NCBI RefSeq assembly: GCF_000003815.2
Contig: NC_049997.1
Coordinates: 8,391,204 to 8,455,203, forward strand
Source of the DNA: Branchiostoma floridae
Lineage: Eukaryota > Chordata > Leptocardii > Amphioxiformes > Branchiostomatidae
Direction of reading: 5' to 3'
Length of the DNA: 64,000 nucleotides
This document shows, one piece after another, positions 43,898 through 64,000 of the stretch (its first letter is position 1; each line of letters opens with the position of its first letter). The position numbers were made by a program, and so were the translations under genes. The notes under the pieces were generated by a model. The model searched no databases and was not told the origin of the DNA. It saw only the letters and a list, made by a program, of their open reading frames with translations.

Positions 43898-44149
43898 TTC
43901 ACACTGGAGTCAAAATCATCGTAGCAGGGGATATCGTATTGCGAAACCTGTTTTCTTCAACCGTACTCAAGGGCGTACGAAACCAAAATACAATTAGCAC
44001 CAACCAAATCCTCGAGTCTGAAAAAATGTTTTTTTGATGGCGCAATGTGCAATAACAGGAAAATGGTGTATGTTTGGTGCAAATGCGGACGTGTACGTAA
44101 TACTTTAATTGAATAATATATACTACCATCATGATGGTTGTGGAATATA

Positions 44150-44982
44150 AACAGAAAATGTTGTACTTTGGTACCGTACGCCCTTTCAGTGAAGTTGTAA
44201 TCCGCATTTACAAACGCTCGTGTGTGTACAATGGTCTTTAAACAGTTGGAAATACCTCAGTATGCCACCATGTTGACAGTCAAACGCCAAACTACAGACG
44301 ATAGCAAATGTTGTACTTTGGTGTCGTACGCCCTTTAGTTTTTAAGTGAAGTTGTAATCCGCATTTACAAACGCTCGTGTGTATACATGTGTGTGTAAAA
44401 TGGTCTTGAAACAGTTGGAAATACCTCAGTATGCCACCATGTTGACAGCCAAACGCCAAACTACAGACGATAGCAAATGTTGTACTTTGGTGTCGTACGC
44501 CCTTTAGTTTTTAAGTGAAGTTGTAATCCGCATTTCAAAACGCTCGTGTGTGTACATGTGTGTGTAAAATGGTCTTTAAACAGTTGGAAATACCTCAGTA
44601 TGCCCCCATGTTTACAGCCAAACGCCCAAACTACAGACGATAGCAAACGTTGTACTTTGGTGTCGTACGCCCTTTAGTTTTTAAGTGAAGTTGTAATCCG
44701 CATTTTAAAACGCTCGTGTGTATACATGTGTGTGTAAAATGGTCTTGAAACAGTTGGAAATACCTCAGTACGCCACCATGTTGACAGCCAAACGCCAAAC
44801 TACAGACGATAGCAAATGTTGTACTTTGGTGCCGTACGCCCTTTAGTTTTTAAGTAAAGTTGTAATCCGCATTTAAATACGCTCGTGTGTGTACATGTGT
44901 GTGTAAAATGGTCTTTAAACAGTTGGAAATACCTCAGTATGCCCCCATGTTGACAGCCAAACGCCAAACTACAGACGATAGT
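44150..44982. repeat. 169-bp satellite, about five copies
   Basis: The word ATAGCAAA(T/C)GTTGTACTTTGG starts copies at about 44300, 44470, 44640 and 44809 (spacing 169-170 bp); a shorter first copy begins near 44158. Each unit contains GTCGTACGCCCTTTAGTTTTT and GTGTGTGTAAAATGGTCTT. No conserved ORF. Confidence 0.9.
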
Positions 44983-44984
44983 GG

Positions 44985-47430
44985 TGGGATGTGTCCGTGT
45001 GGGCCCGTAGATGTAGCAACACTGAGCAGCGATCTTATGTAGTAGTTTGACTTTATTGGGCCTTAGAAAAATATTGTGTTTTGGGTTACCCAGCTGGCCA
45101 TATAAAAATGCCGACCCTAATCGATTTATTACCTACCACTAGCACTGGCAAGGGACATACAATTTTGATCCGAGTGATAAAGATGTTGTAGCATAGTTTT
45201 TCAACATTTCCTTTCTCATTTATTTTGAAATGGAAAATTCTGTCTGTATAACGTATATCTGTTTAATCAGCAAATGATGTTACAAATACGATTGTTATGA
45301 TGCATTTTTGTTTTGCAATGTCAAACTTCATTAGTTGTATTACTTCGGTCGAATGAAAAAGATAGCATAAAACAGGACTCCCTATCTATGGACCCTATAG
45401 CTTTTTTCACAACTATTATTAGAAACAAAATATTTTTTCTTCGGCCTTGTTTTATTGCGTTGCAGCAGACTAATTTTAGAGAAAAGAAAAATGGCCACCT
45501 ACGCATAATACCGCTGCTATGATGTGATACGTTCGCTTTCCAAGACAATCTACCTTTCAAAAGCAATCTTCGGAACTTTATTCCTTTGGACCACGTACGC
45601 ACATGGTGTGAATGCATTATGCATGGTCTCAAAACGTGGAACTTAACGTATTATAAATGTTTAAAATCTTGTAGGGTCGGGAACGCTATATAATTTGACA
45701 GTCTGATATAACGTCTATTGCCCGAGTGTCCAATATGCATGTAAACCATAAGCTTTGGTTTCACATGATTCAATTAAGTTGAGAGATTTTTACGTCATAT
45801 GAATCTTAAAATAAATATTTCAGATTGTGCAGGTTTTTTGCACTGTGGTGGTTTGTTAGGACGGGTATGCTAAATAATCTAATGGTTTCATATAACGTCT
45901 AATGGCCAGAGGTCACAGGTTCCTTTTCTGACCTTAGTTGGTGAGGTAAACGGCAGTAGAAGAAGAGGGAATTGGCTCTGCCTTCCAATACTGCACCATA
46001 AACACAGTGGATAAAACCCAACTGCCACCTACATCTTACATGTAAGAAAGCTTATGGGGCTAATGTAGCCTCTACCAGGCTCCGTGGTTCGGTGGTCTAA
46101 TTGTCGAAATTGGACAAATAGAGTCAATGGTACGCTAGGGGAGTCAGCCGGCCGAGTAGGACCATTATCCAAACCACGAGGTAGAGGGTAGCCTGGTAGA
46201 GGCTAGGGCTAATGTACAGCGAATACCCAGGAATATACAAGAATTTTTATTTAGGTGACATTCCGGCTTATTCCACCTCTTGTGTGAAAATGTAGTAGGT
46301 CCATTTGGAATTCCCACCCGAATGTGGCACGGATTTTGTAAATTCTTCCTTCCGGCTGGTTTGCTCGATTTCTTTGTGTGGAGGGGAGGCGTCCAGTGAG
46401 CTCAAACAACAAATCAAAACAAATCAGACAGACAGATGATTTACCATCCAATTTTATTATCACCGTAAATTCTCCAAACAAATAGATGTTGTTATTCAAG
46501 ACGCATTGTTTTAAGATTCTCGTCCAAGATACATGTAAGAGGAAAATGGCGACTAACTTCACGGTCCTTGATTGCTTAATTCGAGTAATGTGATCGAAAC
46601 CCGAAAAGTTACCATTACAATTAGCCAAAACTCAATATCCAGGACCCCAAGCAATAGAGATATGTGATCATTGTTCAAAGCGATAAAGGCATGTGGGCAG
46701 AACGTTTGAAAACAGCGCTAAACGTAATGGATATCCATTATAGATTTCTAATCAATGCCTGCTATATTATGAAAACATTATTTGACCCTTGACCCTGTTA
46801 GATATCAAAGACATTATCTAAATTTTGAAAAAAAAATGAACTTGTAAATTTATTTTGGATTTTTTTAAAATCAATTTTGTGAGTTTTGTAAGCTGTTAAG
46901 TTGTCTGTCAACGTCATCACACTTTCCAGGCTTAAGACGATAGTATGTCTCACCTAGCCTGGTTACACATTTCCTCTTTTGAGACTTTACTATGTCAATA
47001 TTCAGTCCAAGTATATCATCTTAATTAGAAATATGGAGTGTGGTGTCGTGATATTTTTAAGACATTGAATATTCTAATCAACGCCATTTTAGTGATTATA
47101 TTTTCTGCCAGCACACATTTTACTGAAAAGGTTTCAGGGCCAACACAGGTCAGCATATTTTTTTTGCACTTTGCAAAGTATCATAATCTATATATAACAT
47201 ACCATGTATCCTGGGTGCTATGATTTCACCGTATACATAAGAATGTCTTTACTTGAATCTTCCATCACTAACTCTTGCTGCGGTTTCTACCTTTAGTGAA
47301 ACACCAATTCAAAAACACAATCACCACATTCAGTATGCTATCGTTGCAACGTTTCGTTAGCTAATGTTGCGTTATATTGCTACCATTGACAAGATCTTAA
47401 CGGTTGTGCAAGATGGTAGTCAGCCAGCAG
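44985..47430. other. Intergenic; one short inverted repeat element
   Basis: TAGCCTCTACCAGGCT near 46066-46081 is matched by AGCCTGGTAGAGGCTA near 46190-46205, bounding a 140-bp foldback segment. No genes recognised in the rest. The lipoxygenase 3' UTR should occupy some sequence just below 47438 on the minus strand. Confidence 0.4.
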
Positions 47431-47437
47431 AAGCACT

Positions 47438-50400
47438 CTAGATGTCGATGCTCATGGCGACGTTCTCGGGGTCCAGGTAGGTGTAGGCGAACTTTCCTTC
47501 CGCCTTCAGACCCTCGTTACGACCCTTGATCTCCTTGGAGAGGTTCTGGAGCTGTGTGTGGAACTTCTCATGGACCTCAGGATACACTTCCTTCATGGCC
47601 TCCACCTATGCGTGACACAAAATAATGTGTTTTATTCCTTATGTTGGTATTCAAGCAAAAAAAAGATGAGGTGATAAACTACGTTTTGGGAGAGGGCTAA
47701 TTGACCTTTAATGTTCGAACACTAAATCAACAAAATTTTACCACAATGTATTCTAATGAACTGTAAATTCTTCAACCATTATAATCGATATTTGAGCATT
47801 GTCCATCTAGATATGCTATGGCTATGAAAGACAATGTTGTCATATTGATAGATATTTTGTATGTGATGAAACTTGACTTACCCCGGTGATAGCTGTCTGG
47901 GACGGCATGGACAGCATGTAGGATAGGAGGACCTGAAGAGTGGTGAACTGTGGAGGAGGCAGGGCCTCCAGTACAGCGGACTCCAACATGTCGTTCGGTC
48001 CGTCAGGCATTGGGGACGACAGCTGGGCAGGCCTGAGGAATAGTTAGAAACATTGAGCATTATTACATCCCGTGTATTGGAATTCTGCGTTACCTAATTT
48101 TTCATCATCAATCATCGGCATGTTGTCAGATCTGCCTCAGTTACTGTCTGGTTGACGATGTCTCATGTGGCAACTCAAGCCCTATCAACCTCCTTTACCG
48201 GCCTCTCTGGGGGCATTGGCGTAAGTTGCAATGTTTGGGGTGGGTGGGGTGGTCGATTCGCAATTTTTAACCGGGAAATGAAAATATGCCGTGAGATCAC
48301 GAAGAGCCCCCCCCCCAAAAAAAAAACATCTTACGCCAATGCCCCCAGAGAGGCTGGTGAAGGAGGCTAAGCCCAGGGTAGTACTGAAAAGTCTGGAACA
48401 CTGAATGTTACAGAGAAATATTTGCGGTCAACTGGTAATGAGTTCCCGAGGAACGTGGCCACACCAGCAATAACCGAAAATTCTAGAGTTCTGGCTTGAA
48501 AATAGTGGACAACTTCTTACCTGTTGGGTATGAAGGAGTAGTAGTCATACTGCGGGAAGTTGATGGCGGAGTGCTGCGCGCTCACGTTGAAGATAATGTT
48601 GGTCAGGCAGTCGATGAGCAGCTTCTTGGTGGAAATCTCGCGAGGAAATCCGCGAAGTTGTCCGGGACCTTCGGTCATCTTGCAGAATTCCTGAAGGGCT
48701 ATAAGATAGTGGCTGTTTCAAAACAGAGTACTTGGTAATTCTGAAATTACTTTACCTATGCCAGTTCAGGTTAGAAGGCTGAAGTCGAAAGAAAATATCA
48801 TCATATTTAGAATAACGATATGTTTGCTAGCGAACCTTTGTCAGCTTGCACAGCTTGGTCATCAGCGTAGGCATGGTTGACCATCCCAGTCACGTACGTC
48901 TTGTAGACGTTCCACAGTTTGAAGCCGTCATCACGGTAGAAGTAGCCTTCCAGTCCATCAGTGCCGGCCTCATCAAAACCACGGCGTTTCAGCTCTTCAG
49001 GGAAACTTGATAAAAATGATAGGATACAGATTATCGAAAAGGTTTAAATTTGGCAACAAAAAGAAATTTACTAAGGTCGACTGTATGGCAACTGTCATGG
49101 ATACATAGAATGGTAAATATGTGTCCTAGTTTTTAAGTTACAATTCTTTAAGAGTGGCAGATTGAAGCTCAGTAACAAATTGCGAAACTTACGCCATGTC
49201 CATGAAGTTGTACTTGCGCCACTCATTGAGGAACATGACGAGCCCTCCCACGGTGGAAGTAGCGAACATCGGGTCGGTGATTGGGAAGATCCTGGAGACC
49301 AGGGAGTGGCGGGCCAGGTAGTTGATGCCGATGGTGTCCTTGAAGTGTGGCAGCAGCAGGCGGTGGATGGGGTGGTCTGGAGGCAGGTGGGTGTGCATGG
49401 CGACCACTAGCGGCTCCATACCGAGATGGGTGTAGCCCAGATGGTACAGGAACTGGTGCACGTTGTTGTCAGCAGATTGGACGTGCATCTTGGCGAACAT
49501 GTACTTGTTGGGATGAGTCTTAGCACTTTCAGGGGAGTACACTTCGTTTTTGCCTATAACACAGGATTTACCTCTTGAGACAATCCGAAAATTATTTCCA
49601 TTATGATAAGGAAAATCTTATGTAAGCCTGCTTAGAAATGGAAAATAAGTTACTTCTGCCCATATGCCTTACCCTTGTCCCTGGTCAGCTGGATGCCGAG
49701 CATGTTCAGACGAGACTTGCAACAGTCCAGCTCTTCCTTGTACATCAGCACGATCGGCGCGTAGAAGAATTTGCCCGGAGTAGCAGGAACGCCGAGCATG
49801 GGGGCGTAGTCCACGATGAAGAGCCTGTTCTCTTCCATGAGCTGCAGCGTGGTCTTGCCTTGTCCTTTCAGGCCGAGCATCTCTGCTGGAATCCGGCTCT
49901 GGTCCTTACACAAAGTCACCAGCATGGGGTCGATGCCTGATGTTGAATATTAATAGGATAAAGACAAATTATTGTGCTTTCTCCTGGTTAGGCTTTTATA
50001 TGAGACAAACCAGTCCTTTTTACCAACATGTACTGAAAAAAATAAAAATCATAATCGCATTTCGATGGACATTTAAGAGAATTCTCACCGTGCCTTAAAG
50101 TTGAACTCTTTGTCGTTTATTGAGAAACTTGTGTTAGCCCCCCCCCACCCCACCCTGTAATACCCTTTTAACTTTCTTATCGGGTTTACTGTAAAAAAAC
50201 GCGAAAGCATAGAAATGTTTTCTTTTGTTGCAATTACATATTTTTGTTAGTTATAGTGGCAAGTGAATATTGTCCACGAACCCTGGAGATACTGGCGGCA
50301 GAACTCCTCGTCTTTCTGCCATTCTTCAATCAGCTTCTCGTTGGCAGGAAGGTAGCCGCTGAAGTTGGCCTTCCACGGATCCCAAATACCCTTGACTTGG

Positions 50401-51342
50401 GCCAGGCGGACAAGGATCTGACCCTATTATGAAGAGGTAATAGAAAATGACCATGATATACTTAGTGCTATTCAAGTGCAATACACTTGATGTCATAGGC
50501 AAGGTGTTAATAATTTGCATTAAACGTCAAGGACAAGTGATTTTGCTTTTGTCATTGTACAATATATGCAATACATATCTTTGTTGTACGCATCCAAACA
50601 ACAGGAAGAAAAAACCTGTGAGGCGATGAACTCCATGAGACGCTGCATGAGCCGCCCAGCTTTGTAGGGAGTGAACATCTCCTGTGTCGGCATGGGAACA
50701 CAGGAGGCAGGATACTCCTCCAGAGGCACGTCGGGGTGAGTCCGCAGGCGTTTCATGTAGCTCAGCTCGTACTTCTGGCCTGTGAAATTAAACATATAGT
50801 GTTTCATACTTAAAGCCTACCCGTTTTTATCTGTCAATTATACCTTTCATAGCAGTACGTACTCAAAGCAGTGTCGTGACGCCTGTGTATTTGATAGGGA
50901 TGACAGAAAGTAGTTACCTAGTCATATTGATAACTAGCTAATTGTGTGTAGAGCAGGTTACGTTTCTTATGTCAACGCCTCTTCTGAAAATCTTATCTAG
51001 GACATCATGTATAAAATGCTGTATGTACCTGCATTTAAACATTGATCAAGAAAGTCTCTACCTGGGCCAGCGAATGACATGATAAGGTTGGTGAACTCGT
51101 TCCTGATGGCGTCCAGCTCGCTCTGAGCGACGGGAGCCAGGAACGGGATGGCGAGTGACGTAATGAGCTTCTCTCCCTCCGGTTCCTTGGGCTTGTCGTG
51201 CATCTTCAGGTACAGCCGGACGTTCAGCGTGCCTCCCCCCTGCACGTCCAGAGTCATCTTCTTCTCCTTGCCTGACGCCAGCTCGTCCAGGTTGACGTTG
51301 GCTGTACCCATGATGTCGTCCTGTCCGACTGTGTCCCGGTCC
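47438..51342 (-). CDS. Lipoxygenase catalytic-domain exons
   Basis: Exons 51062-51342 (second half of the C2 domain, then start of the catalytic part), 50616-50779, 50282-50423, 49673-49936, 49193-49553, 48836-49005, 48521-48698, 47882-48032, 47438-47605. The exon at 49193-49553 encodes NNVHQFLYHLGYTHLGMEPL, giving the first two iron His (HxxxxH), then DHPIHRLLLPHFKDTIGIN. The exon at 48521-48698 encodes SAQHSAINFPQYDYYSFIPN, with the third His and the Asn ligand position. The protein ends MSIDI, so the C-terminal Ile carboxylate ligand is kept. The enzyme should bind iron and be active. Regio- and stereospecificity cannot be read by eye. Confidence 0.92.
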
Positions 51343-54300
51343 CTGTAGACAATGGAGGTTGGCGGAGACATAATTATCAATTAAATAGATGGCGTAGATT
51401 GATGCCAGATGGCGTAAGCAGTGTTATTTCTTTGTATACAGGCTTTTGCAGTCTTCCGATTCCACCATACAGTCTGTACTCAAGTCGGATTCTTTCAGTC
51501 GTAACACTTATTTCAAAAACCTCTGGAGAGGCTTGTACATATGGAGTACAATTCTCTAATGTGTCTATGTTGTTACGTTGTGTGGCTTGTCGTGTGTAAG
51601 CATGTATGTAAGCACGTGGACCGATGGCGATGATGTGTGTCTTGTATTTTACTATGACCAGTTAACGCCTACAGTAAAGACTAAAGAAAGAAGATTACAT
51701 TAAATGGATAGATCGACATAACAGCTAGCTAGTTAGCGAGATTACAAACCATTTCAGATAGATCTTATAAGATCTGTGATATAACATAGAAAAAGTATAA
51801 TGTGCGTAGTCCAGTGGTTAGCGGACTTGTCTCTGGAACTAAATCATAGCTATAGACGCCGTGAGTTCGATTCCGGCTGTGTCGCTCACCCGACATGCAC
51901 GCTATTAGAAAGGGTTGCAGTCCTTATACCCCCCTCACATTAGGCGCGATTCGATCGGACGACGAGTCTGCGAGCTCTAATTTACGAGGAGGCATGACCC
52001 TGATGCCGACGAAGAAATGGCAGAGTTCCTCGTTGCCGTCAGGGTCATGCCTCCTCGTAATCTAGAGCTCGCAGACTCGTCGTCCGATCGAATCGCGCCT
52101 AATGTGAGGGGGGTATTAGGACGGAACATTAAGCAGTGGTCCACTGTTTATTGTACTTGTCGTAAAGAGGTATTTCCCAGTACAATGGACCTGTAAATAC
52201 TGTACATAGTGTCTGTCCTCTCTGTCATTGCCAGTGGAAGACTAGCTCTTCACTGAGCTAAAACTGGATCGAGATCACTTTCCTTTTCTTATAACATGGA
52301 ATGATTAACCAAACTGCAGGAAATTCCTTAATAAATACATTACTGTGATATGGTATATGGCCATATCTTATGACTAAAAGAACTTACATGACGGTGAAGA
52401 CGATGGTTCTGGAACGTGACGTCACAGACATGGCGAAACGCTCGTCCCAAACAGGATTCTGGTTGGAGTAGCAGACCTTGGTCGTGACAGGCTTCCCATC
52501 ATTCAGTGCGAGTACCACATACGGGTCCGCGTCGACTTAGAGAAACAAAAAACAGAATTATACGTCAAAAGAGAAATGACTACATGGTCATTATTGAAAA
52601 AGTGTGAACAACGCAAAAGAACAAATATATCTAAAATAAGAGTGCACAATATCTCCGTTTCTAGGTTTACATGGTGATACTTTTATAGTATGGTTCACGT
52701 TTACTTGTATTTCTATTTCATGTTTTTCCTACTTCTCTTTTTTTCTAACAATTCTCTTTTATCTTACTTACTTAACTTTTCTTTTATCCTTTCTTTTAAC
52801 TTAGTACTTTGATATACAATGGATTCCAATTATTTGTATTACGCCTTTTTGGATAATTCGGGTAATTGTATAGGATTGAAAAAATCCAAAACCATTTGCC
52901 ATTCATTCTATTGTCTAAAACATTGCAGAATTGAATAACCCACCATCTCAAACTTCTGTAATTCGAATTTAACATGAATATTCTAATGGCCTCGATTATT
53001 ACTGACATGCTTCGTTTTCATACTAATGCCTTTATACACTGTCAGGTAAGTAGTATTGAAACCATACTGTATATAGTGACGAAACTAAAGATCGACACTG
53101 CAAAGCACCTACTAGAGAGTAGACAGTAGCCAAAGAAGTTCTAAAAACGCATTCATCACCTAATACAACTATATTCAACCTAATTTAAGCAACCTGGTAC
53201 TTACACCAGCCGTCAGTCCTTGCCAGGTCAGCGGCACTCCCAACAACGACCTCTAGCGTCCCGACCTCGGAGTGGAAGAGCTGCTGGAGTCCGTTGATGC
53301 ACGCCATGTAGGCTCCCTTCTGGTTGTCTTGGATACGGGACACGGCAAACGACACGCTGACGTCAAAGGTGCACTCGAACTTCACTTCAGTCTCCTTCTC
53401 ACCAACTGTTGAAAGACAGCACTTGTTGTGATGTTGACGTAATGAATAATACTATTGTATCTACATCACAAAGCATGTTATTCAAATCAATAGTATTCAT
53501 TGCGTTAAAAAATTCATCAGTAGGTAACAATAAGAATGATTCATATTTCTGACCCTTCACTAGGAAATATTCTTAAAAACCAAATAGGAAAATAAAACAT
53601 CAAACGCTATGAACGGGGTCATAAACTGGGGTGGACCATATTATGTTGAGTTATGAAATGATCTTTTCGAAGTGTATCTGTTACCATGATGGTAACGAAC
53701 GTTAAAGTGCATGTTGCCGTGGTAACAGCTAGGATGTGTCAGCTGTCATGATAACAGTGACGTGTCTGCTGCCATGATAACAGACAGTGACGTGTCTGCT
53801 GTCATGGTAACAGTGACGTGTCTGCTGCCATGGTAACAGTGACGTGTCTGCTGTCATGGCAATAGTAATGTGTCCGCGGCCATGATAACAGTAACGTGTC
53901 TGTTGCCATTGCAACTATGACGTGCCTGCTGTCATGGCAACAGTAATCTGTCAGCTGCCATGGTAACAGTGACGTGTCTGCTGTCATAGCAACAGTAATG
54001 TGTCAGTGGCCATGGTAACAGTAACGTATCTGCTGTCATGGTAACAGCAACGTGTCTGCTGCCATGGTAACAGGGAGTGTCTGCTGTCATGGTAACAATG
54101 ATGTGTCAGCTGTCATGGTAACAGTGACGTTTCTGCTGCCATGGTAACAGTGACCAGCCTGTTGCTATGGCAATGAAGTCGTACCTGCAGTCATGGTTAT
54201 GGTGGTGTAGACGTTAGTCATGGTAACTGGTGGAGGAGGAGTCATGGACAGCAAACTGTAGATCTGTAGTCATGGGTAAAAATATAAAACATTTCACAGA

Positions 54301-57300
54301 TTATTTAATGTGAAACGGGCTAGACGTACTGAGTTTGCGCTATTAAAAAAGACCTTTAGTTACTTCTTTTTCATGTAAGGTACTTATTTGTTCTATGTCA
54401 ACACCTGCACATAATATTGTACATCTATGAGAATTGTAGTCCCCATTGTCGTTTAGTCCCTTTGCGAAGGGTCATGGTCTGCATAGACTGACTGACAGTA
54501 ATAGTTGTAGTAGTAGTAGAAGTAGTGGTAGTAATAGTAGTAGTAGTAGTAATTGTATTAGTAGTTGTTCTATAACTACTGTTCTATTAACGTTGGATAA
54601 AGCATGCCTGACCTCCACGTGGTTAACATCGTCTCTCCATTCCAGGCGCTCCTTGATGTGCGATCCAGTTTTAGACGTCACGAAACTCCTCACGCAGCCC
54701 ACTACGTCCTTCCCAGGAGCTTCAATCTTCATGCTTTCATAGATTTTCCAATACTCCAGACATGGCTTGTCATAAAACAGATGAAATGAAAGTAAATGGA
54801 ATGATCTAAGTATTTGTAGTCAGAAATGAGGCAGGGAATCTTGTACGTTTGAGACTAAGTACTTAATCAAAGTTCACACGTTTGAATATCAAAATGCATA
54901 CAGCACTTGACAAGCCACTACATGTATACAGTGACAAGCCACTACATGCCTTTATTTCCAGTTATCATATCATCCAAAACACGTCACTAAGAGGAATATA
55001 GTTAAGTTATGGGGCAGCTTTTGGTAACTCATATCGTTATGTTGCTTTTTCCCCACAAATACACAAATCGATGACAAGACTGGAAACATATTGCTCTCAA
55101 AAACGTAAAGTTAAGACATGTACCTTTCCAAACGGCTTGAAGACCTTCCACACCTCCTTGACTGGTGCGGTAACCCTGCCCCGGGCCACGGTGGAGTACG
55201 CGCCCTTGGGGAAGGCCGGTGGCCCCGATGGTGGTTCACTGGTACTCGGTGTCATGTCCTCCTCGTCATCTTCGTCCTCGAACATTTTCTGCGGTAGGAA
55301 TCAGTGCATGATATTTAGATTAATACATGAAGTATTTACATGTACATGTGCAATGCTACAACATTATGCGTTTATGAAGTCGGCATAAACTTTCCTGAAA
55401 AAGGGTAGTTCCAAGAAATGCAACATTTCCGAGAAAATACAAGATGTTCCCTCCCAGTAAATTGCCTTTTTGTCAAGCTACTCGTACACACAGTACTAAT
55501 ATCATTCGGCTCGCTCCTGAGGCGTCGCCAAAAAACTTAACTTATGCAAAATTTTTGCGTTAATGAATTTGTTTTGTGCCATGTGAAACTTTTCGGCAAT
55601 GCGCAATGATATTGTTTTTGACAAAACCGGTTTCTATTTGACCATTTTCTGTGATGCAATGTAGGAATTTGTGAGAAAGGTTACAACCAAATTAGCAAGG
55701 ATTCTACTGTAGATATTGATGAGCTCCAGCGGCGTTCGCTCGCTCTTAAAGTTCAAAGTAAACGGTTAGAAATGTCGCAGACGTTTTGAGAGTGGAGTAC
55801 GCTTCCTACCGTGAGGTTCGCGACTCGGTTAGAGATGGCGGGAACAAACCACTTGTCGAACGTTTCCGCGGATTCAGCCTTGCTCGGTAAGAAGGTGCAT
55901 TCGTACGCCACTCGGGTCTTGTTCGGGCTGACGGAGAACAGCTGGATCTGAAAAGGGAATGTACATTTCCATTAGCAAGTCCAAGGTTTGAACTACGTCT
56001 GTGCAATATGGCGCAATGGAGGTATGTATTATATCATAATATTTAACCTTCAATACAACATGGAAATATACTTGTAAAGTATCATGTCGTTTAGATATAT
56101 TTCCTAATCTATGGCGGTCATCTTATTGGGTATCGTTACCTCTAGGAATTTAGTGCGTCCACCGTTATGTAAATATTGCAGAGTAACAGGGTTTAACACA
56201 CAGCTGAGCAACAAGATCGAACGTATCCAGCGCAGAGCGGTACGTATCATCATGGGACGCGACTACACCAGCTATCGAGATGCGTGTACACAGCTTGGCC
56301 TTCCATCACTCCACTCCAGGCGTTCGAATCTGACACTTCGGTTTGCTCAATCACTCTTAGTCTCTGATCAATATCGCCACTTCCTACCATCCACAAGACA
56401 GAACATTAGTTGCCGACAAACCCGCTCTGCCAACAAACTGGACATTCCCAAGTGCAGAACTGAACGCTATAGGTCTAGTGCCATTCCGCACATGGTCCGT
56501 CTACTCAACTGTAATGCCCCCATGCCTTAATCCTGCCAATATTGTATGCCTCTAATTTTCGTTTTAGATATTCGCTGGTCGATATCATGTATTATATTCG
56601 TACCTAACTGATTTTACACGTACTTTTATCTTAATGATTTGCCTTGTTGGACATTAATCAAATGCGCGCCAGGTAAACCGTTTTCGAACTTGGCATTCCT
56701 TTCGACAACCGCTACACACCTACCAAAAATCACAAAGTTCCATCCACACAAACACCTAAATGGTGGAATAGGATACTGGATGCCCGGTCGGGCTGCTTTC
56801 GGGAGCGAAAAGTATGATAAAAGATACCAAACTACAGAAGACATAAAGAGAATAGTCGTGAGCGTTATTTTTGTATATTTCACTATTTGATTTGGGCCGA
56901 AAAGCTGAGTTTGTGTGGTTATCAGGGGATATAAAGTTGGGACTTTTGTTGTCCTAGCACATGGCCTCCTCATTGGGCTGTGGTGCTGTTTTGAGGTCAA
57001 GGGTCATTTGTTTTTTTTTAGTTTCCCAGAAGTCCGTGCCGTTAAGATTCATGGCGACATGTGTCTTTTTGGACAGCTGAGATGACGGACTAGCATATGA
57101 GGGTATGTTTGTGGGCCAGTAACGTCAGAAAGTTGAGTTATTAACAGTTGCTTTCTCCTATTTTTTTTGTATAGGAAACCATTGTTAAGAGGCAGTACAT
57201 TGAATGAGTGGCAGATTCCCTAAAGATGAGATGTGTGTGAAGCTTACCTTCTCCCTGTAGAACTTTGTTTTCAGCATGGCGCCGGTGTACTCAAACACCA

Positions 57301-60300
57301 CGAGGCAATCGCTGGAGTCGTACCAGATCTGGCGGACGTGGAGGCACCGGTCTCCGTCAAAACACTTACCAGTAGGGTCGTTCGGGAAAGTGATGTCCCT
57401 AGTGTCGCCATTAACCTTGGCGTCTAGAATGGACATGGAACAAGTATGTATTATCACCTTTGAAAAAAAGGTTATGTCATGTTAGTAACTATGTTTGTTA
57501 TTTATTGATTTCACTGATCATACATCTTTTTGTATTATTATAACATATGTGTGAGTTCTTTCTTTGTTAATTATGATACATCAAGATCATACATCTTGTG
57601 TAAGCATAGAGGGAGCAGCATAAATCGTTCAGGTGTTCCCCTCCTCCTGCACATGTTTTATGTTTTATTCTTTTCTGTATTTATTATCATTTTGTTTGTG
57701 CAAAATAAATAAACAAACAAGCAAACATTGGCAATCAATCTAGTAAAAAAGGATAACGCAAGTACTATTAACTACATTGTTAAATAACATAACACAACAT
57801 AACATAACAAATGGGGTTGAAATAGAACATAAGAAATAACGTAAAACAGAAGCGGTATATCAAAGTATGTAGTAATATACAAGCTCAGAATTTGGCTTAG
57901 AAATGAAAACGGAATGTGCATCAGCTCAGTAAGCTTTAGAATCATCTTGATGATGGATCTTATTTTAATTTTGTGAATATCTATATGTGAAAAAAAATTC
58001 TGATGACTCACAGCTTGCATTTGGGATCCAGGTGACGTCATTGAAGTTACCCATAATGCCCCACAGTTTGTCGCGAGAAATGTCCACTTCCTGGTCGACC
58101 TCATGCTTCCGGCCAAGTTTCTCGGCCACCACGAAGTTTAGCACGTCTCGAATAGTAGCCCCAAGAAGGTGAACCTAAACAAAACACGCCATCTTGTCAT
58201 TGCTCATAGCAATAGATTCTTTATAAAACCTCGTTTTATGTAATCTCCAAGCAGATCTTACGGTAGAATAAGGTAGTATGTAAAGCTGGCAGAGGAGTGA
58301 AGCCGGCCTAAAAGTGTGTATGCGACAGGTGCCCGTTTGACTACCTTTGGCCGGTTATAATCCTTGCCCAGCAATGATACTATTTTATGGCACCGTAGCA
58401 TCTGCTTTGAGATTACGTTTTACGTACATTTTAAGTTATTGCTTAGCCCTCCCATGTACGTCAGAACACAGTATCTATCCGCGACCCGGTCCAATAGTAG
58501 TTCGGTTATAAAGTAGTACGTCACAGTATTTGAAAAGGCCACAATTATTTTTCTTTCGACAGCGTCGAGGTAGAAATTGCGCTGAATGGTAGAGGAACGC
58601 ACAAGTTGTGAAACGGAATAAGTTGGATTACAGTGTTTTTTCTTTCTATTGGCGGGAATTTGCGCCTTGACACTGTAATCGGGTAATTCCCCCCTCCCCG
58701 GCGGCGGCAATCGAAGGGCCGGCCACTAGGGGCGCGATTTTAGTCAGGCTAGCGCACAGAGCTGCTACTTCAAGAGAATACGCTATCCAGGATATATCCG
58801 GGCGCGGCACACAGGAAATGTATAGGTGTGCCGGATATATCCGGTTTAAGGGCTTAAAACATGAAGTGGCAGACGATAGGTGAAGTCAGAGTCACCTGCC
58901 TGCAGATGCCCTGTAGCACTACAAACCTTGTGGTATGCGATGTCGTCACGGCGGTCCTCTGCATCCTTGACGGCCGAGACGAAGCGAGCAGATATGGTCA
59001 CGCTTGCGGTGGTGCTTCCAGAAACCTGACGGAAAATCAAGTTGCGGTTAAGGGAACGTACATTGCAAGTAGCTGTCAGTCATGATCAACCGTGTAGGGA
59101 TAAACCGACAGTGCGTATGTCATGACCATGACTTTGACAGTGGACACATCTGTTACATGCTGTCTACAGTGTGACATAATATTCAGAACAACCTTTCTGT
59201 AGAATAACAGGATGAACTTTCAAAATGAAAATATAAATCTGTGTCACGTCAATGAAGGTTAGACATCCAGGTAATAAGATATGCCAAAAAGAAGATGATT
59301 TTCGAAACGGTCTGACGTTTCAACTAGCATTCACTAAATCTGTGTCAGTATTACGGTTTGTCATTACGAAGACTGCATGAACTAAATAGTCAATTCAATG
59401 ACTATTATACTCTTTTCCTACCCGTCCAATATGTACCTTGATGGTCATCTCGTAGCTCTTGTACAGGTCGTTCTTCTCTGTCTCCTGGACCCTCCAGGTC
59501 TTAGTGGAATCGTCCTTCTCCACCAGCTTCATCTCCCGCTGCCCCTCGGCCAGGTCCGTCGGGTCGTAGTAGAAAGAGACCACCGTGCCCACCTCCCCAT
59601 AGCCTGGGGAAAAGCGAGGGATTCTTCACTCAATGAGTTACATTAGCGTCTTGAAAAAAAGATATTGCAGGACTGCATACGGTCAAAGTTAGTCTGTAGG
59701 GCTTTTAGTAATAGTATGACGGCGCTTCGACTATGAGACTTGAGACTTTATTTGAAAATCCATTAGTGGCGTGCCCAGGGTACGCCACTTGCACTTTATA
59801 CAAACAATGACTATGAGCTCACTTCTCAGTTCTTCGAATATGAGTTAAGTTCTTTGTTCAACTACAAGCAGCAAAGGTTACGGAATCATAGTGGAAGTCT
59901 TTTACCTTCACGACCAAAGTCAGGAAGGTACCCATTTTTACACCTGGTGTAAGTGAGAACCGGAGAGGAGATAGGCGCGACCAGGGGACTAAAATGCCTA
60001 TATTGACACAGCATAACATGTTGTGTTGCCCCGAAGGCTGATTAAAGGCTAGGGGACGAATAAAAAGTAAGAGAGAAAGGACACACCGTCGGGAGACGGC
60101 GAGTATCGAACTCGGGACCTCTAGGATCCGAGCCCAACGCTCTACCAGATATGCCGGAACACAGGACGCCACAACTTAATCCCTTAACTTAATCTCAACC
60201 TTAACGTCGCTTGAAAAATAAAGAATACAACCGAACCACTTGCCTTTCAGCACTTTCACACCCTCGTGCCCTTCCAGATAGAGCTGCAGCTGCACGAAGT

Positions 60301-61223
60301 CCTGGAACCCTGCCCAGTAGTCGTCAGCAGACACCGGCACCTCCTCGGTGTGTTCCAGGAACACCTCGGCCCCCTCTGCTAGGAATCCTGAAGTAAGCAG
60401 TTAATGATAAATACGGGTTTTGATCATGAAAGTATTTCTATTTGGACAATACCGATAGAGTTGTGCTGCGCAAAGGAACATTACAGTTTTCTTTATACCC
60501 CCTTTCCACTAGGACGGCGCCCCCACCGCACTCTCTCTGTAACTGTAATCTAAAAATTAACAGGTCGTTCAAGGCGTTGTAAAGTAAACAAACGAATCTA
60601 TTTACGCTTTGTGTATTTTGGTGTCTTTTAAGTCACACTTTTCATTTTGAATGATATATACAGTATGAAATACAAGATAACCCACATCCGTTGCATTCGC
60701 TTTTTATAGGAAAGTGGGCCTTAGATCCTTATAAATCGATGAAGTGCATTAGGGTTTAATGTCTATTCAAGATGGGGTATTATTTATTTACGGAGATTCA
60801 TTGCATTATTTAGAATACATATCTCTAAAGAGAAACTATCTAATAATATCTTCACTTTTTGTGGGGGGTGCGGATGCGCATGCCGAGAGAGATGCACTGT
60901 GGGTAATTTTCTGAAAGAGAAGGCCCAGGATGTATATCAATTCGCATTTTATTTACAATTTGGTTCTACAACAACAACGACAACAACAAAATCAACAAAG
61001 CGCTTGCCTTCAGGTAAAATGCAGTCATCAACCAGCTTGGTCACAACGTCGCTTGTTTTCATAGACTTCATCTGAGCATGTCCAGGGCGGCATTTCGGCC
61101 TTGGAAATAACAAGAAACAGACATGAAAATAACCAAACATACATCTAAACAAGTGACATAGAAATATTACTGCACATACATACAAACACACACACACACA
61201 CACAAACAGAGAGAGAGAGAGAG

Positions 61224-61271
<48 letters not shown>

Positions 61272-64000
61272 CCCTGACGTGGCTACGGCTACTGAATATG
61301 ACTACAGGTAACGTTGCAATAGCCCATAAAAGCAAAAGTAAGAAAAGCGCATACTTTTCAACAAACGTTGCCTGAATCCACTTGAAGCGGGGTTCCATCA
61401 GTGCCTTGATGGTAGTTTTGGGGGTTGCCCCGGGTTGAGGAGTAAAGTAGGAGGTGTACTTGACCTTGGTCTTCCTCTCATCTAACTTGACCAGCTCCAG
61501 CTATGGGTACAAAATGAATTTCATGTATGAGGGTTTGCATGTTCCTGAATCGTAGCCAGGGGTGCTACAAGCTACATTAATTCCGAACAGCCTTGCCCCC
61601 AAATCATTAACGTTAAGCGTTGTCGATAAACATGGACGAATTACTGTGAAGCGTTACCATGTCCTACCCTCATATAGACCCTTTGGCAGGACATGGACAA
61701 CTCGATAGCTTTTCATTATTCCAACACACATGGTACAAAGACAGTTTGTCCATAATTTATTATTCAAATTTGGTTTCTGTGCTTACCTTGCCACGGTAAT
61801 GCAGCACGCCCATGACGTCATTCTTGCCAAACTCGTACGTCAAACTGGCTGGATGGTAGGCCGTATGGGTGATCGTCTGCACAAGGCGCTGCTCAGTAAA
61901 ATGTGGGCCGAAGAAAATTCGTCGTCGCAGGTCGTTGGTTTGGTAGTCGGGTACAACCTTCACGTCGGTCGCGTTCATCACCCAGGAGACGTTCCCCCAG
62001 TCACTCACGGTCTCCCACAGCTTCTTAAAGGAGCAGTCGACATCAAAGTCGAAGTGCAACACGTCGCCCTTCGTGTCCGCAATGACGGCCATAACCTGCA
62101 AGTACACATTATTCAGAGGGGTATTCCACTGCAGAAGGGATTGTTATTTCCAATAGATAATGTATCATAAAATGTAAATATATAATCAGCCGATATTTGG
62201 AGGAATTCCACTTGTGGTGATTTACGCAACATTTGTTTGTGAAACAATATGACACTCACTAAACCCATGCAGACCCTACGCATGCATTCCCTATGCGTGT
62301 AGACACTTCCTTTATCGTGAATATTTTCGGCATAAATGAGGGGCGCTAAGCAAACGAAGGAGGTCAAATGTTCACAAGACATCAAAGAACACATGACAAG
62401 ACGTGTTTTTCGTATCGCCCCTGAAATTAGTTTCATAACCTAACTTAAGTCAGGTGTTGAATAATTTTATTGCAAGTTCATGTCCGAAGACAAATCAAAG
62501 CAAACAAATAAAAGCAACGGTGTACATAATTGTATACTCAACAAAGAAGAAAAATGAGATTTATAGATTCATTAGAATGGAAATGATATCTATTCTAAAG
62601 CTACGTCTAATAACCGTTTTGGTAGTCTCCAAGCAGACCCTACGGTGCCTTAGAAATAGTATCAAAGCAGGCAAGGGACTTAGTATAGGTGCCTTAGAAA
62701 TAGTATCAATCAAAGCTGGCCAGGGACTTAGTATAGGTGCCTTAGAAATAGTATCAAAGCTGACCAGGGACTTAGTATAGTCTCCAAGCAGACTCTGCGG
62801 TGCCTTAGAAAAATATCAAAGCTGGCAAGGGACTTAGTATAGCGGCACCAGGTGCCCGTTTGACTCCCTTTGGCCGACTATACTCCTTTGCCAGCTTTGA
62901 TACTATCTCTTTAGGCACCGTAAGGTCTGCTCGGAGACTACTTTTTTCGTACCATACCTCATTGATGCGGTTCCTCAGCATGTACCTCGTGAAGGCAATT
63001 TGGGCCTTCCTCTTGTTGTAGTCCTTGAGGGCGAATATGCCCTTGATGCTCATGGTAACTTTTGCAGTCTCGCTTGTGTCCTCATCCACCTTTCATGTAA
63101 ACACAGTTAGATAGATCATCGGGTATTTTATAACGGTAGCGACATCTCGGAATTTGCTACATTTGCCATTTCAGAATTATATAAATTTCGTAATTGGTTT
63201 TAGTTAACCTACTTCAAAATGTTGAGAAACTTTTCTGAATGGATTAGTTAACTCTCGCCACTAGCACCGTAAGTTAGGACGCCGCCGTTATGTCAATGAG
63301 TTATGACATCATCAAGTCCCGGATGTGTTCCGCCATCTTGTTCTGAGTTAAGGTACACGCCAATAAACCGAGTTGCAATTTAGTCTCATCCGTGGCGTCC
63401 CTCGCGATCCTTGGAGTTCAATTACTGACGCTATAATTTCACACAGAGAAAACTTCCATGAGCTCGACCTAGTGACATACTGAATGCGCTTCACCTACTC
63501 ACAGGTCACCAAGTGATATAGTTCATGAAACTATGACTGTTAATCATCACTGTTTTGTGATAAGAACTATAGGTATATAGAAGATGAAGCGCACTTTCTT
63601 CTAGAATGCTCACTTTATAAAGATATACGCAATACCTTTGTTAATAGTACTTCGCTTGCAAAACAGAAATATGCACAACTAACAAAAGAAGACTTTTTCA
63701 AATATATAATGACATCAGTTAACTATGATTTGATAGAAGAACTCTGTAAGTTCGTCTTCACATGTTTTAAGAAGAGGGAAGTTTACGTCTGGGACTGTTT
63801 ACGTCTGGGGGCTTTCAACTTAGACATATTACCCAGAATTCCTTGGTAACTTGTAACTGTGAAAAGGCTTATTTTACCTTGACGGTGGCTAAATAGGAGG
63901 TGAAGAGAGGGTTGCTCCCCAGCATGGCGATGGCCCAAGTCTTAGTGGCTTCATCCTTCTGGACAAGCTCCTCCTGGGTCCTTCCGCCTAAGAAGTCAAA
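47438..64000 (-). CDS. Tandem SRPBCC modules - C2 domain - lipoxygenase (5' end beyond window)
   Basis: 25 visible exons on the minus strand; all joins agree in phase and give 4314 nt (1437 residues plus stop). From N to C terminus: at least five SRPBCC (START/Bet v1-like, polyketide-cyclase-type) modules (exons 64000 to about 53270), a C2 domain (about 53265 to 51160) and a lipoxygenase catalytic domain (about 51160 to 47438) with all five iron ligands. SRPBCC proteins bind hydrophobic ligands, C2 domains bring enzymes to membranes with Ca2+, and lipoxygenases insert O2 into polyunsaturated fatty acids. Animal lipoxygenases normally carry a PLAT domain; none is seen here. The start codon is not in the window. 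No signal peptide or membrane helix was seen, so a cytosolic, membrane-recruited enzyme is expected. Two introns use GC donors. Domain calls are by eye; those for the lipoxygenase and C2 are firm, the SRPBCC calls somewhat less so. Confidence 0.85.
48177..48374. mobile_element. MITE in a lipoxygenase intron
   Basis: GGCCTCTCTGGGGGCATTGGCGTAAG (from about 48200) is matched by CTTACGCCAATGCCCCCAGAGAGGC near 48330, and the pairing extends outward (CAAGC..AACCTCC / GGAGG..TAAGCCC). Loop about 105 bp; non-coding. Confidence 0.75.
51062..53405 (-). CDS. C2-domain exons of the SRPBCC-C2-lipoxygenase gene
   Basis: Exons 53205-53405, 52388-52535 and 51062-51342. The domain starts near VGTLEVVVGSAADLARTDGW, continues FDADPYVVLALNDGKPVTTK, VCYSNQNPVWDERFAM, and ends with VMDRDTVGQDDIMGTANVNL. 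The xDPYVxL, NPxWxExF and xxDxDxxxxDDxxG landmarks are those of C2 domains. Asp residues are present in loop 1 (TDGW, DADPY) and loop 3 (DRD, QDD), so Ca2+ binding is predicted. The first of these exons also carries the end of the last SRPBCC module. Confidence 0.85.
51800..51900 (+). repeat. tRNA-like sequence, probably a SINE head
   Basis: TAGTCCAGTGGTTAGCGG (box A-like) and GTGAGTTCGATTCCGG (box B) are correctly spaced, but the acceptor stem does not pair. A tRNA-derived SINE head or tRNA pseudogene is more likely than a functional tRNA. Confidence 0.55.
51927..52115. mobile_element. Near-perfect palindromic MITE with TTA target duplication
   Basis: The two 85-90 bp arms are almost exact reverse complements (ends TACCCCCCTCACATTAGGCG / CGCCTAATGTGAGGGGGGTA) around a very short loop. 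TTA flanks both ends (51924-51926; 52116-52118), fitting PIF/Harbinger-type insertion. The high arm identity suggests a young copy. Confidence 0.88.
53205..64000 (-). CDS. SRPBCC (START/Bet v1-like) module exons, at least five modules
   Basis: Exons 63878-64000 (cut by the window), 62958-63089, 61787-62095, 61355-61500, 61008-61099, 60244-60387, 59437-59603, 58927-59025, 58012-58174, 57248-57423, 55810-55947, 55124-55288, 54613-54765, 54185-54263, 53205-53405. Modules repeat the pattern V.v..s...VWe...dfg....W....., then strands and a C-terminal helix: examples are VTAPVKEVWKVFKPFG, DVDCSFKKLWETVSDWGNVS and DISRDKLWGIMGNFNDVTWI starts, QEELVQKDEATKTW and MKLVEKDDSTKTW middles, and ALKDYNKRKAQIAFTRYM ends. 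An acidic linker (FEDEDDEEDM) precedes the fifth module. The modules are diverged, so the duplications are old. Their ligand or activity is unknown. Confidence 0.7.
53705..54180. repeat. About 26-bp minisatellite containing RFX X-box-like and TGACGT words
   Basis: Around 18 copies of a unit like TGCCATGGTAACAGTGACGT plus GTCTGC fill the end of an intron of the lipoxygenase gene, stopping about 5 bp from the exon at 54185-54263. Many units fit the relaxed RFX X-box (RYYNYY-N2-RRNRAC), and a few are close to GTTGCC..GGTAAC; many also contain TGACGT. Whether any regulator binds is not shown. Confidence 0.85.
54490..54565. repeat. (AGT)n microsatellite
   Basis: Imperfect AGT/GTAGTAGTA repeats in an intron of the lipoxygenase gene; they create spurious poly-Ser and poly-Leu frames. 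Confidence 0.9.
56150..56640 (+). pseudogene. LINE ORF2 3' fragment in an intron of the lipoxygenase gene
   Basis: The plus-strand frame 56111-56530 reads LSNKIERIQRRAVRIIMG, LGLPSLHSRRSNLTLRFAQS and SAIPHMVRLLN before its stop. This is the typical C-terminal region after the reverse transcriptase of CR1/Jockey-like LINEs (RIQRRAxRxI...LGxxSLxxRR...L). It is 5'-truncated and antisense to the host gene. Confidence 0.8.
58231..58425. mobile_element. Diverged MITE related to the element at 62623-62945
   Basis: It shares TCTCCAAGCAGA, GGTGCCCGTTTGACTACCTTTGGCCG and GGCACCGTA..TCTGCT with 62623-62945 in the same order and inverted layout, and is more degraded. Confidence 0.6.
58675..58755. repeat. 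Second copy of the CGGCGGCAATCG dispersed repeat
   Basis: CGGCGGCAATCGAAGGGCCGGCC...CGCGATTTTAGTCAGGCTA closely matches the end of the repeat at 11600-11825. Confidence 0.7.
60060..60170 (-). repeat. tRNA-like SINE head
   Basis: The minus strand reads ATCTGGTAGAGCGTTGGGCT (box A region) and CCCGAGTTCGATACTCGCCG (box B). The acceptor stem is not complementary and non-tRNA sequence continues toward 59940, so a SINE is favoured over a tRNA gene. Confidence 0.55.
60496..60720. mobile_element. MITE with TTA target duplication, copy 2 of the 20567 family
   Basis: It starts TACCCCCTTTCCACTAGGACGG and ends GGAAAGTGGGCC, with TTA on both sides (60493-60495; 60721-60723). It is more diverged and partly deleted on its right arm compared with 20567-20807. 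Confidence 0.75.
61185..61270. repeat. (CA)n and (GA)n microsatellites
   Basis: Two CA arrays separated by a GA run. They lie in an intron of the lipoxygenase gene and explain a false 149-codon ORF. Confidence 0.95.
62623..62945. mobile_element. Foldback MITE with internal ~55-bp tandem repeats
   Basis: The ends TAGTCTCCAAGCAGACCCTACGGTGCCTTAG and CTTTAGGCACCGTAAGGTCTGCTCGGAGACTA are reverse complements. Inside, GGTGCCTTAGAAATAGTATCAAAGC...GGGACTTAGTATAG is repeated four times. Non-coding, in the intron before exon 61787-62095. Confidence 0.75.
63540..63835 (+). pseudogene. LINE ORF2 C-terminal fragment
   Basis: The plus-strand frame reads IEDEAHFLLECSLYKDIRN and later EELCKFVFTCFKKR. This is the common C-terminal end of LINE proteins (xEDExHFLLxCxLYxxxR). 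5'-truncated, antisense to the host gene, in the intron after the first visible exon. Confidence 0.7.

Follow-up and report, generated by a model that had tools for sequence, protein, structure and literature searches.

A five-module SRPBCC-C2-lipoxygenase of the lancelet Branchiostoma floridae and its bacterial relatives

A stretch of 64,000 nucleotides from the Branchiostoma floridae genome (contig NC_049997.1, here C19, 8391204-8455203; the whole stretch is called the window below) carries on its minus strand a gene for a lipoxygenase (LOX) preceded by an array of SRPBCC modules and a C2 domain. Our analysis indicates that this is probably a rare, bacterial-type SRPBCC-C2-LOX non-heme iron lipoxygenase which came to be present in chordates via horizontal transfer and was extended by the duplication of a pair of modules. 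The whole protein holds exactly five SRPBCC modules (M1-M5), which fall into classes a, b and c and give the layout (ab)(ab)c-C2-LOX. The features are as follows; residue numbers are those of P0001, a Branchiostoma floridae database protein of 1509 amino acids (aa).

62066..64000, minus strand: SRPBCC M1, class a; residues 73-167, the first part lying outside the window (exons in the neighbouring stretch L052)
61363..62056, minus strand: SRPBCC M2, class b; residues 171-306; Polyketide_cyc2 above gathering score
58106..60376, minus strand: SRPBCC M3, class a; residues 344-499; first exon beginning at 60387
55274..58105, minus strand: SRPBCC M4, class b; residues 500-640
53263..55201, minus strand: SRPBCC M5, class c; residues 665-815; contains the small exon 54263-54185
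51252..53262, minus strand: C2 domain; residues 816-914; D832, D838, D885, D887, D893; W834-F835
50325..51251, minus strand: linker joining C2 to the stretch matched by Pfam Lipoxygenase; residues 915-1065; judging from the paralog P0005, the latter part is already LOX fold
47438..50324, minus strand: lipoxygenase catalytic domain and stop; residues 1066-1509; Pfam and PDB sequence match
49441..49458, minus strand: iron ligands H1200 (49458-49456) and H1205 (49443-49441)
48559..48573, minus strand: iron ligands H1387 (48573-48571) and N1391 (48561-48559)
47441..47443, minus strand: C-terminal Ile1509, fifth iron ligand

An earlier note, made from the letters of this DNA, had proposed 25 in-phase exons encoding SRPBCC, C2 and LOX in a single reading frame. 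A splice-aware dynamic programme (codon scores and generic splice matrices) reproduced them: from 64000 to 47438 on the minus strand, 25 phase-consistent exons form one open frame closed by a stop. When the start of exon 6 was moved 12 nt earlier, to 60387, the translation became identical to residues 73-1509 of P0001, in agreement with the single frame; the residues before 73 are encoded upstream, by two more exons and the start of a third (L052). All internal splice sites are AG/GT except for two GC donors, after 61008 and 60244, in consecutive introns, and the model containing both agrees with P0001. The small M5 exon (54263-54185) adjoins a minisatellite; its dismissal as minisatellite noise was ruled out and it was kept, since by eye it supplies SRPBCC strands that were to be expected, and P0001 contains it. 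That minisatellite (window 53715-54154; 26-bp unit, 16.7 copies) occupies the intron beside the exon. Judged by its sequence, the gene is real, has an intact reading frame and is a member of a rare family.

In P0001, Pfam recognises Lipoxygenase (PF00305; 1.6e-59, 202.5 bits versus a cut-off of 23.6), C2 (2.7e-20) and the SRPBCC family Polyketide_cyc2 (7.9e-23 over three stretches); PLAT (PF01477) was not found at E <= 0.1, where these three families are the only matches. The lipoxygenase domain of the window protein also matches a PDB sequence at 5.7e-58. Together with profiles made for the modules, these results bear out the layout that had been read from the sequence (SRPBCC modules, then C2, then LOX), and 'at least five' modules became five when the whole protein was counted. 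When modules M2 to M5 were scanned singly, agreement was partial: M2 (31.4 bits) exceeds the Pfam gathering score of 27.4, but M3, M4 and M5 fall below it (13.3, 15.3 and 15.4 bits; the M5 query was without one exon). In the paralog P0005, Pfam at E <= 0.01 shows LOX and C2 and no SRPBCC match; its modules rest on the custom profiles and on its predicted structure. The full set of iron ligands, with the C-terminal Ile, is present as claimed (H1200, H1205, H1387, N1391 and I1509).

Relatives were sought in three protein searches, in which scoring was limited to candidates with most words in common; 52, 38 and 5 matches were listed from 7984, 7993 and 7987 scored candidates, respectively. Many rows are without an organism name, and the searches are not exhaustive. 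Among the matches listed, animal-named family members come from Branchiostoma and two lampreys (Lampetra P0028 and Petromyzon P0079), and four fish rows have PLAT in place of C2 and SRPBCC. Named bacterial members include those from Coleofasciculus, Trichocoleus, Tolypothrix, Kamptonema (N-terminus incomplete), Shewanella, Pendulispora and Myxococcota. In cyanobacteria a single open reading frame (ORF) encodes SRPBCC(a)-(b)-(c)-C2-LOX (the L001 ORF, Coleofasciculus P0053, Trichocoleus P0054 and P0055, and Tolypothrix P0057); these proteins have the same domains in the same order as the window protein, with orthologous modules, but three modules instead of five, an intronless gene and an incomplete calcium site. 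A shorter form, c-C2-LOX, is found in lampreys, Shewanella and Myxococcota. The lamprey proteins thus have SRPBCC, C2 and LOX in a chordate (P0028 is 40% identical over the C2-LOX query), but with one SRPBCC module and none of the five calcium-site Asp. Matches covering c-C2-LOX were found in at least 2 of 386 genomes drawn from the phylum of the cyanobacterial genome G001 (G001 and G193). Among 377 genomes of the phylum to which the myxococcal genome G002 belongs there was at least one, G002 itself; these counts are lower bounds, only the best candidates having been scored. A scan of GTDB contigs gave 43 loci, where the LOX ORFs of L001, L002 and L003 match the class c profile and that of L001 alone also matches classes a and b.

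The assertion that no enzyme with this layout had been described therefore stands only in part. SRPBCC-LOX proteins have been published for Pyropia and Shewanella violacea, and SRPBCC-C2-LOX proteins exist in cyanobacteria, Myxococcota, Shewanella and lampreys, so that the layout is not unique; the chordate occurrence and the five-module form were not found in the open-access papers searched (PMC), nor were the cyanobacterial module orthology and the complete C2 calcium site. The family is already present in databases, the a-b-c-C2-LOX layout being that of UniProt X5F8G5 ('Lipoxygenase 1') from B. belcheri tsingtauense (P0007). A 2014 paper reportedly deals with arachidonate metabolism in amphioxus.

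The individual modules could be traced between phyla. In phmmer comparisons with P0022, a metagenomic protein inside the cyanobacterial clade, M1 and M3 of P0001 matched module a (best 2e-26), M2 and M4 module b (best 2e-17) and M5 module c (3e-35). When 66 modules, taken from 28 selected proteins, were placed in a tree, classes a and b, of 19 rows each, were recovered with support 100/99 and 100/97, respectively; class c, of 28 rows, was weakly supported (60/69). Lancelet and cyanobacterial rows are present in each class. On this sequence evidence cyanobacterial a has its lancelet orthologs in M1/M3, b in M2/M4 and c in M5. Independent domain shuffling in lancelets was rejected because of this one-to-one orthology. 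The five modules recur in P0006 and P0014, and in P0001, P0006 and P0014 the M1/M2 pair branches off outside all remaining lancelet a and b modules, among them those from P0017 and P0018, two divergent paralogs (89/98 and 92/70; 88/83 in a second tree). For this reason the a-b duplication seems, with moderate support, to predate the split of the lancelet paralogs, though for both module trees bearing on it the program warned of long branches meeting.

Split forms occur as well. In the genome G193, where ORF starts were set mechanically, a separate a-b gene (307 aa) lies ~365 bp upstream of a c-C2-LOX gene (861 aa), which is followed by an aldo/keto reductase gene; in Tolypothrix it is the fused gene that is followed by a reductase, 81% identical to that of G193. 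In the genome G097 an a-type protein is encoded on its own, next to a divergent LOX-family gene; over the module it shares 42% identity with P0022, and it has no Pfam match. That locus (L084:3484-6631) comprises the class-a gene, the LOX-family gene (Pfam 2.6e-8) and a gene for a MIF-like tautomerase. On a 31-row tree the state changes between fused and c-only at least four times, although a separate a-b gene may have gone unnoticed for some of the c-only rows.

The position of the lancelet enzyme was examined in two trees. A quick method was applied to 106 of the 121 LOX-domain matches (15 fragments, near copies or odd rows were dropped); 13 lancelet rows (99), 2 lamprey rows (100) and 49 bacterial or unnamed rows (98) formed clades, and fish PLAT-LOX (n = 4) and plain bacterial LOX lay beyond a 99-supported branch from the family. 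A careful method, applied to a core of 48 chosen rows, gave the same three clades: lancelet (10 rows, 100/99), lamprey (2 rows, 100/100) and bacterial or unnamed (28 rows, 100/100). In both trees the family rows, including the window protein, were grouped with the bacterial members apart from other LOX (99 and 100/99). The relation of the bacterial and chordate genes is clear from these groupings; horizontal transfer between bacteria and chordates, in one direction or the other and once or more often, is likely.

Intron positions were also compared. The LOX region of the window gene has seven internal joins, six of which fall at the same column and in the same phase as joins modelled for the paralog on C5 (L057); none of the seven agrees with two conventional LOX genes of the same genome, on C12 and C11, called conventional from their match to fish PLAT-LOX. 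The comparator models were self-built and provisional, and that of L057 is without one stretch present in P0017.

Several observations weigh against transfer as we propose it. The bacterial clade does not enclose the chordate rows, so the trees do not show a straightforward donation by a bacterial lineage that still exists. Lancelets and cyanobacteria as one clade were rejected by the approximately unbiased (AU) test (p 0.00027), and chordates as one clade were not (p 0.38). The rooted order of the core tree (lamprey, then lancelet plus bacteria) has support 85/52, with a root that depends on very distant, long outgroups. Two joins of the window gene lie within five columns, and in the same phase, of conventional LOX joins, and neither conventional gene is the best comparator, iron ligands having been lost from both. 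It might then be supposed that the family is ancient in eukaryotes, that most animals lost it and that bacteria obtained it from eukaryotes, as the rooted tree would allow, its 28 bacterial or unnamed rows forming a clade (100/100) that leaves out lancelet and lamprey. We consider this unlikely: the root hangs on the outgroups just mentioned, the animal-named rows from three non-exhaustive searches of ~8,000 candidates each are only Branchiostoma and two lampreys, and cyanobacteria have stand-alone a and a-b genes together with mixed split and fused states.

The window gene has paralogs within the lancelet genome. At E < 2e-16 the exon encoding the iron ligands was found at nine loci including the window gene (a count that refers to this exon only), five of them, again including the window gene, in C19:8.44-8.54 Mb. 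In tblastn comparisons with P0001, covering eight of the nine loci, the ligand exon is 88-100% identical in six (100% in the window gene), and 61% identical at the divergent C5 locus L057; at L046 it lies within a longer joined piece that is 75% identical. Five conventional LOX loci (L054 on C12, L058 on C11, L068, L062 and L063) look catalytically dead, since at least one iron-ligand residue has been lost in each (e.g. second His to Tyr, third His to Asn or Arg); the conventional loci L059, L066 and L069 keep all four visible His/Asn ligands.

Calcium-binding C2 domains have five Asp in loops 1 and 3. The C2 domain of the window protein carries five Asp at this canonical spacing (D832 and D838; D885, D887 and D893), with W834 and F835 between D832 and D838. 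In alignment A4 the complete site was found in 7 of 10 lancelet rows, in none of the 12 cyanobacterial-clade rows (of which 5 carry the name of a cyanobacterium), in none of 21 other rows and in neither lamprey row. Because the complete site is confined to lancelet rows, calcium-driven membrane docking is suggested for this lancelet clade only.

An Ala at the chirality (Coffa) site of lipoxygenases predicts S products. The site reads Ala in the window protein (in INYLAR), and for this reason the enzyme is predicted to be S-type. The remaining chemistry can be compared with that of PhLOX and PhLOX2 from Pyropia haitanensis, which are described as SRPBCC-LOX enzymes in excerpts of PMC11507377; like the window protein, they and the S. 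violacea LOX, which has the same SRPBCC N-terminus and is placed beside PhLOX, have this region ahead of LOX, where it is reported as standing in for PLAT, and transfer from marine bacteria was proposed (excerpts of PMC11507377 and PMC4319731). One N-terminal SRPBCC region is described for PhLOX and the S. violacea enzyme in these excerpts, versus five modules in the window protein. PhLOX makes lyase and allene oxide synthase (AOS)-type products, and the authors locate this chemistry in the LOX pocket (PMC11507377, in excerpt). Among four PhLOX activity residues, N575, F642 and F826 are replaced by V, I and M in the window protein and Q777 is kept, according to ungapped offset mapping from the first His, which may fail after the third His, where the region may be gapped. 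With Gln777 the sole one of the four conserved by this mapping, the lancelet LOX site is more safely predicted to act as a simple dioxygenase.

Residues 1-284 of PhLOX are described as two perpendicular beta barrels (excerpts of PMC11507377). We infer that the second is a C2 domain, by analogy with Shewanella P0037, a member of the SRPBCC-C2-LOX family that has SRPBCC and C2; the term 'C2 domain' is absent from PMC4319731. According to the same parts of PMC11507377, PhLOX gave more volatile lyase products when its first barrel was deleted, and none once the N-terminal part had been removed entirely.

The helix-grip fold is seen in predicted models of two relatives, P0005 and the Tolypothrix array (matches to Bet v 1, PYL and ARO/CYC). 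A fold search with the whole P0005 model mainly covered residues 641-1177, and the array was therefore modelled separately. The best Foldseek matches of the cyanobacterial a-b-c array are the di-domain aromatase/cyclases BexL and StfQ; lachrymatory-factor synthase is also among the matches. The cyclases share with the array the helix-grip fold, as do PYR/PYL receptors, and the tandem pair, but identity to BexL and StfQ is 10-14% and the pair has no rigid superposition (root mean square deviation, rmsd, 15.6-16.4; for BexL 15.6 over 311 columns, versus mostly 2-3 for single modules on receptors such as PYL and Bet v 1). As far as the models go, this is a likeness of fold and not of function.

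It is possible, though on balance improbable, that the modules form a second catalytic unit (cyclase, isomerase or lyase) turning the LOX hydroperoxide into a defined oxylipin, i.e. that the protein is a true one-chain synthase. The matches to BexL, StfQ and lachrymatory-factor synthase point that way, as do the aldo/keto reductase after the gene in two cyanobacterial genomes, the separate a and a-b genes beside LOX genes in two genomes of the cyanobacterial phylum and the loss of lyase products from PhLOX without its N-terminal part (PMC11507377, in excerpt). However, the BexL superposition implies a differently arranged pair, the fold likeness suits pure receptors (PYL, Bet v 1) equally well, the Pyropia authors put AOS/lyase activity in the LOX pocket, and PhLOX2 shows no lyase activity although it has SRPBCC (excerpts of PMC11507377). 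Columns identical in at least 85% of rows number 15 in class b (24 rows) and 23 in class a (23 rows), which also speaks against it.

We prefer a scheme in which the modules serve the lipoxygenase. The lancelet C2 domain would bind calcium and dock the enzyme on membranes, the LOX site would insert oxygen into a polyunsaturated fatty acid with predicted S chirality, and the SRPBCC pockets may hold the fatty acid or the hydroperoxide; the modules could thereby control substrate supply, product release or further conversion, shaping the products. The function suggested by the earlier note (modules holding fatty acids or converting the hydroperoxide, making a one-chain oxylipin factory) is plausible, with indirect support from the Pyropia deletion results, the separate a and a-b genes beside LOX genes and the fold match to di-domain cyclases. 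Gene neighbourhoods, at few loci, tie the SRPBCC modules to lipid oxidation: beyond the loci described above, the gene of a Prochloraceae genome is flanked by a fatty acid desaturase and a patatin lipase. Some results do not favour this scheme. Three of the 10 lancelet rows lack part of the calcium site; PhLOX2 keeps SRPBCC and is without lyase activity (excerpts of PMC11507377); and among the neighbour ORFs, three of which were scanned, no reductase was recognised by the Prochloraceae gene and no desaturase or lipase by the Tolypothrix gene, no neighbour being common to all loci examined. The P0005 model has an overall predicted template modelling score (pTM) of 0.53, which makes the domain arrangement unsure. 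A bolder version, in which a complete bacterial oxylipin-synthase layout was gained in one transfer, a calcium switch was added, the a-b pair was doubled and the array converts the hydroperoxide to a lancelet-specific oxylipin, is doubtful. That gene prediction merely read an SRPBCC gene and a LOX gene as one is highly improbable, and such a fusion artefact was ruled out because a-b-c-C2-LOX is one uninterrupted ORF in the cyanobacterial proteins listed above; the five modules also recur in P0006 and P0014.

Other animal lipoxygenases differ in their partners. PLAT-LOX enzymes (5-LOX, coral 8R-LOX) likewise have a calcium-type domain ahead of LOX and share the catalytic fold and ligands, but the domain is PLAT and not C2, SRPBCC is missing, and the window LOX is on a separate branch from the four fish PLAT-LOX. 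The coral AOS-LOX fusion (3dy5, among the structure matches) is also an animal LOX joined to an oxylipin-pathway partner; unlike SRPBCC, that partner is a catalase-type AOS (excerpt of PMC8124189). The window gene adds a non-PLAT lipoxygenase type to chordates and links a chordate lipoxygenase to a bacterial and algal oxylipin enzyme via individually traceable modules; it is thus of interest for genetic exchange between bacteria and chordates and for the way in which a C2 domain can stand in for PLAT. What SRPBCC does, a question standing since the Pyropia work, can be tested directly by exchanging or deleting modules, because the family includes split (ab plus c-C2-LOX), fused (abc) and duplicated (ababc) forms.

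A viral route was considered and rejected: 34 viral_contigs stretches matched a pattern, none encoding a relative, the phage collection gave no match, and giant-virus lipoxygenases are remote fold matches. The Sylvanvirus lipoxygenase (BFVD A0A3G5AHN6) was fold-aligned over 877 columns, longer than C2 and LOX alone, with an rmsd of 17.7. Among plasmids, 8 records matched, 7 of them within LOX and 1 within SRPBCC, and in no case did the match extend over 80% of the query.

Some relatives have unusual architectures. P0043, a metagenomic family relative of 899 aa, has an N-terminus which by eye resembles a signal or plastid-transit peptide, and the protein is therefore possibly algal. P0044 (eukprot, 1430 aa) and P0045, the nearest outgroup to the family, have long hydrophobic N-terminal parts; the middle part of P0044 recalls catalase-type AOS by eye, and Pfam at E <= 0.1 gives LOX only. 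In P0050 (1248 aa), C2, PLAT and LOX occur together. A scan of window positions 44000-64000 with Rfam gave no matches. Downstream of the gene lies a 169-bp tandem repeat (window 44220-44981; 4.5 copies, 95% matches).
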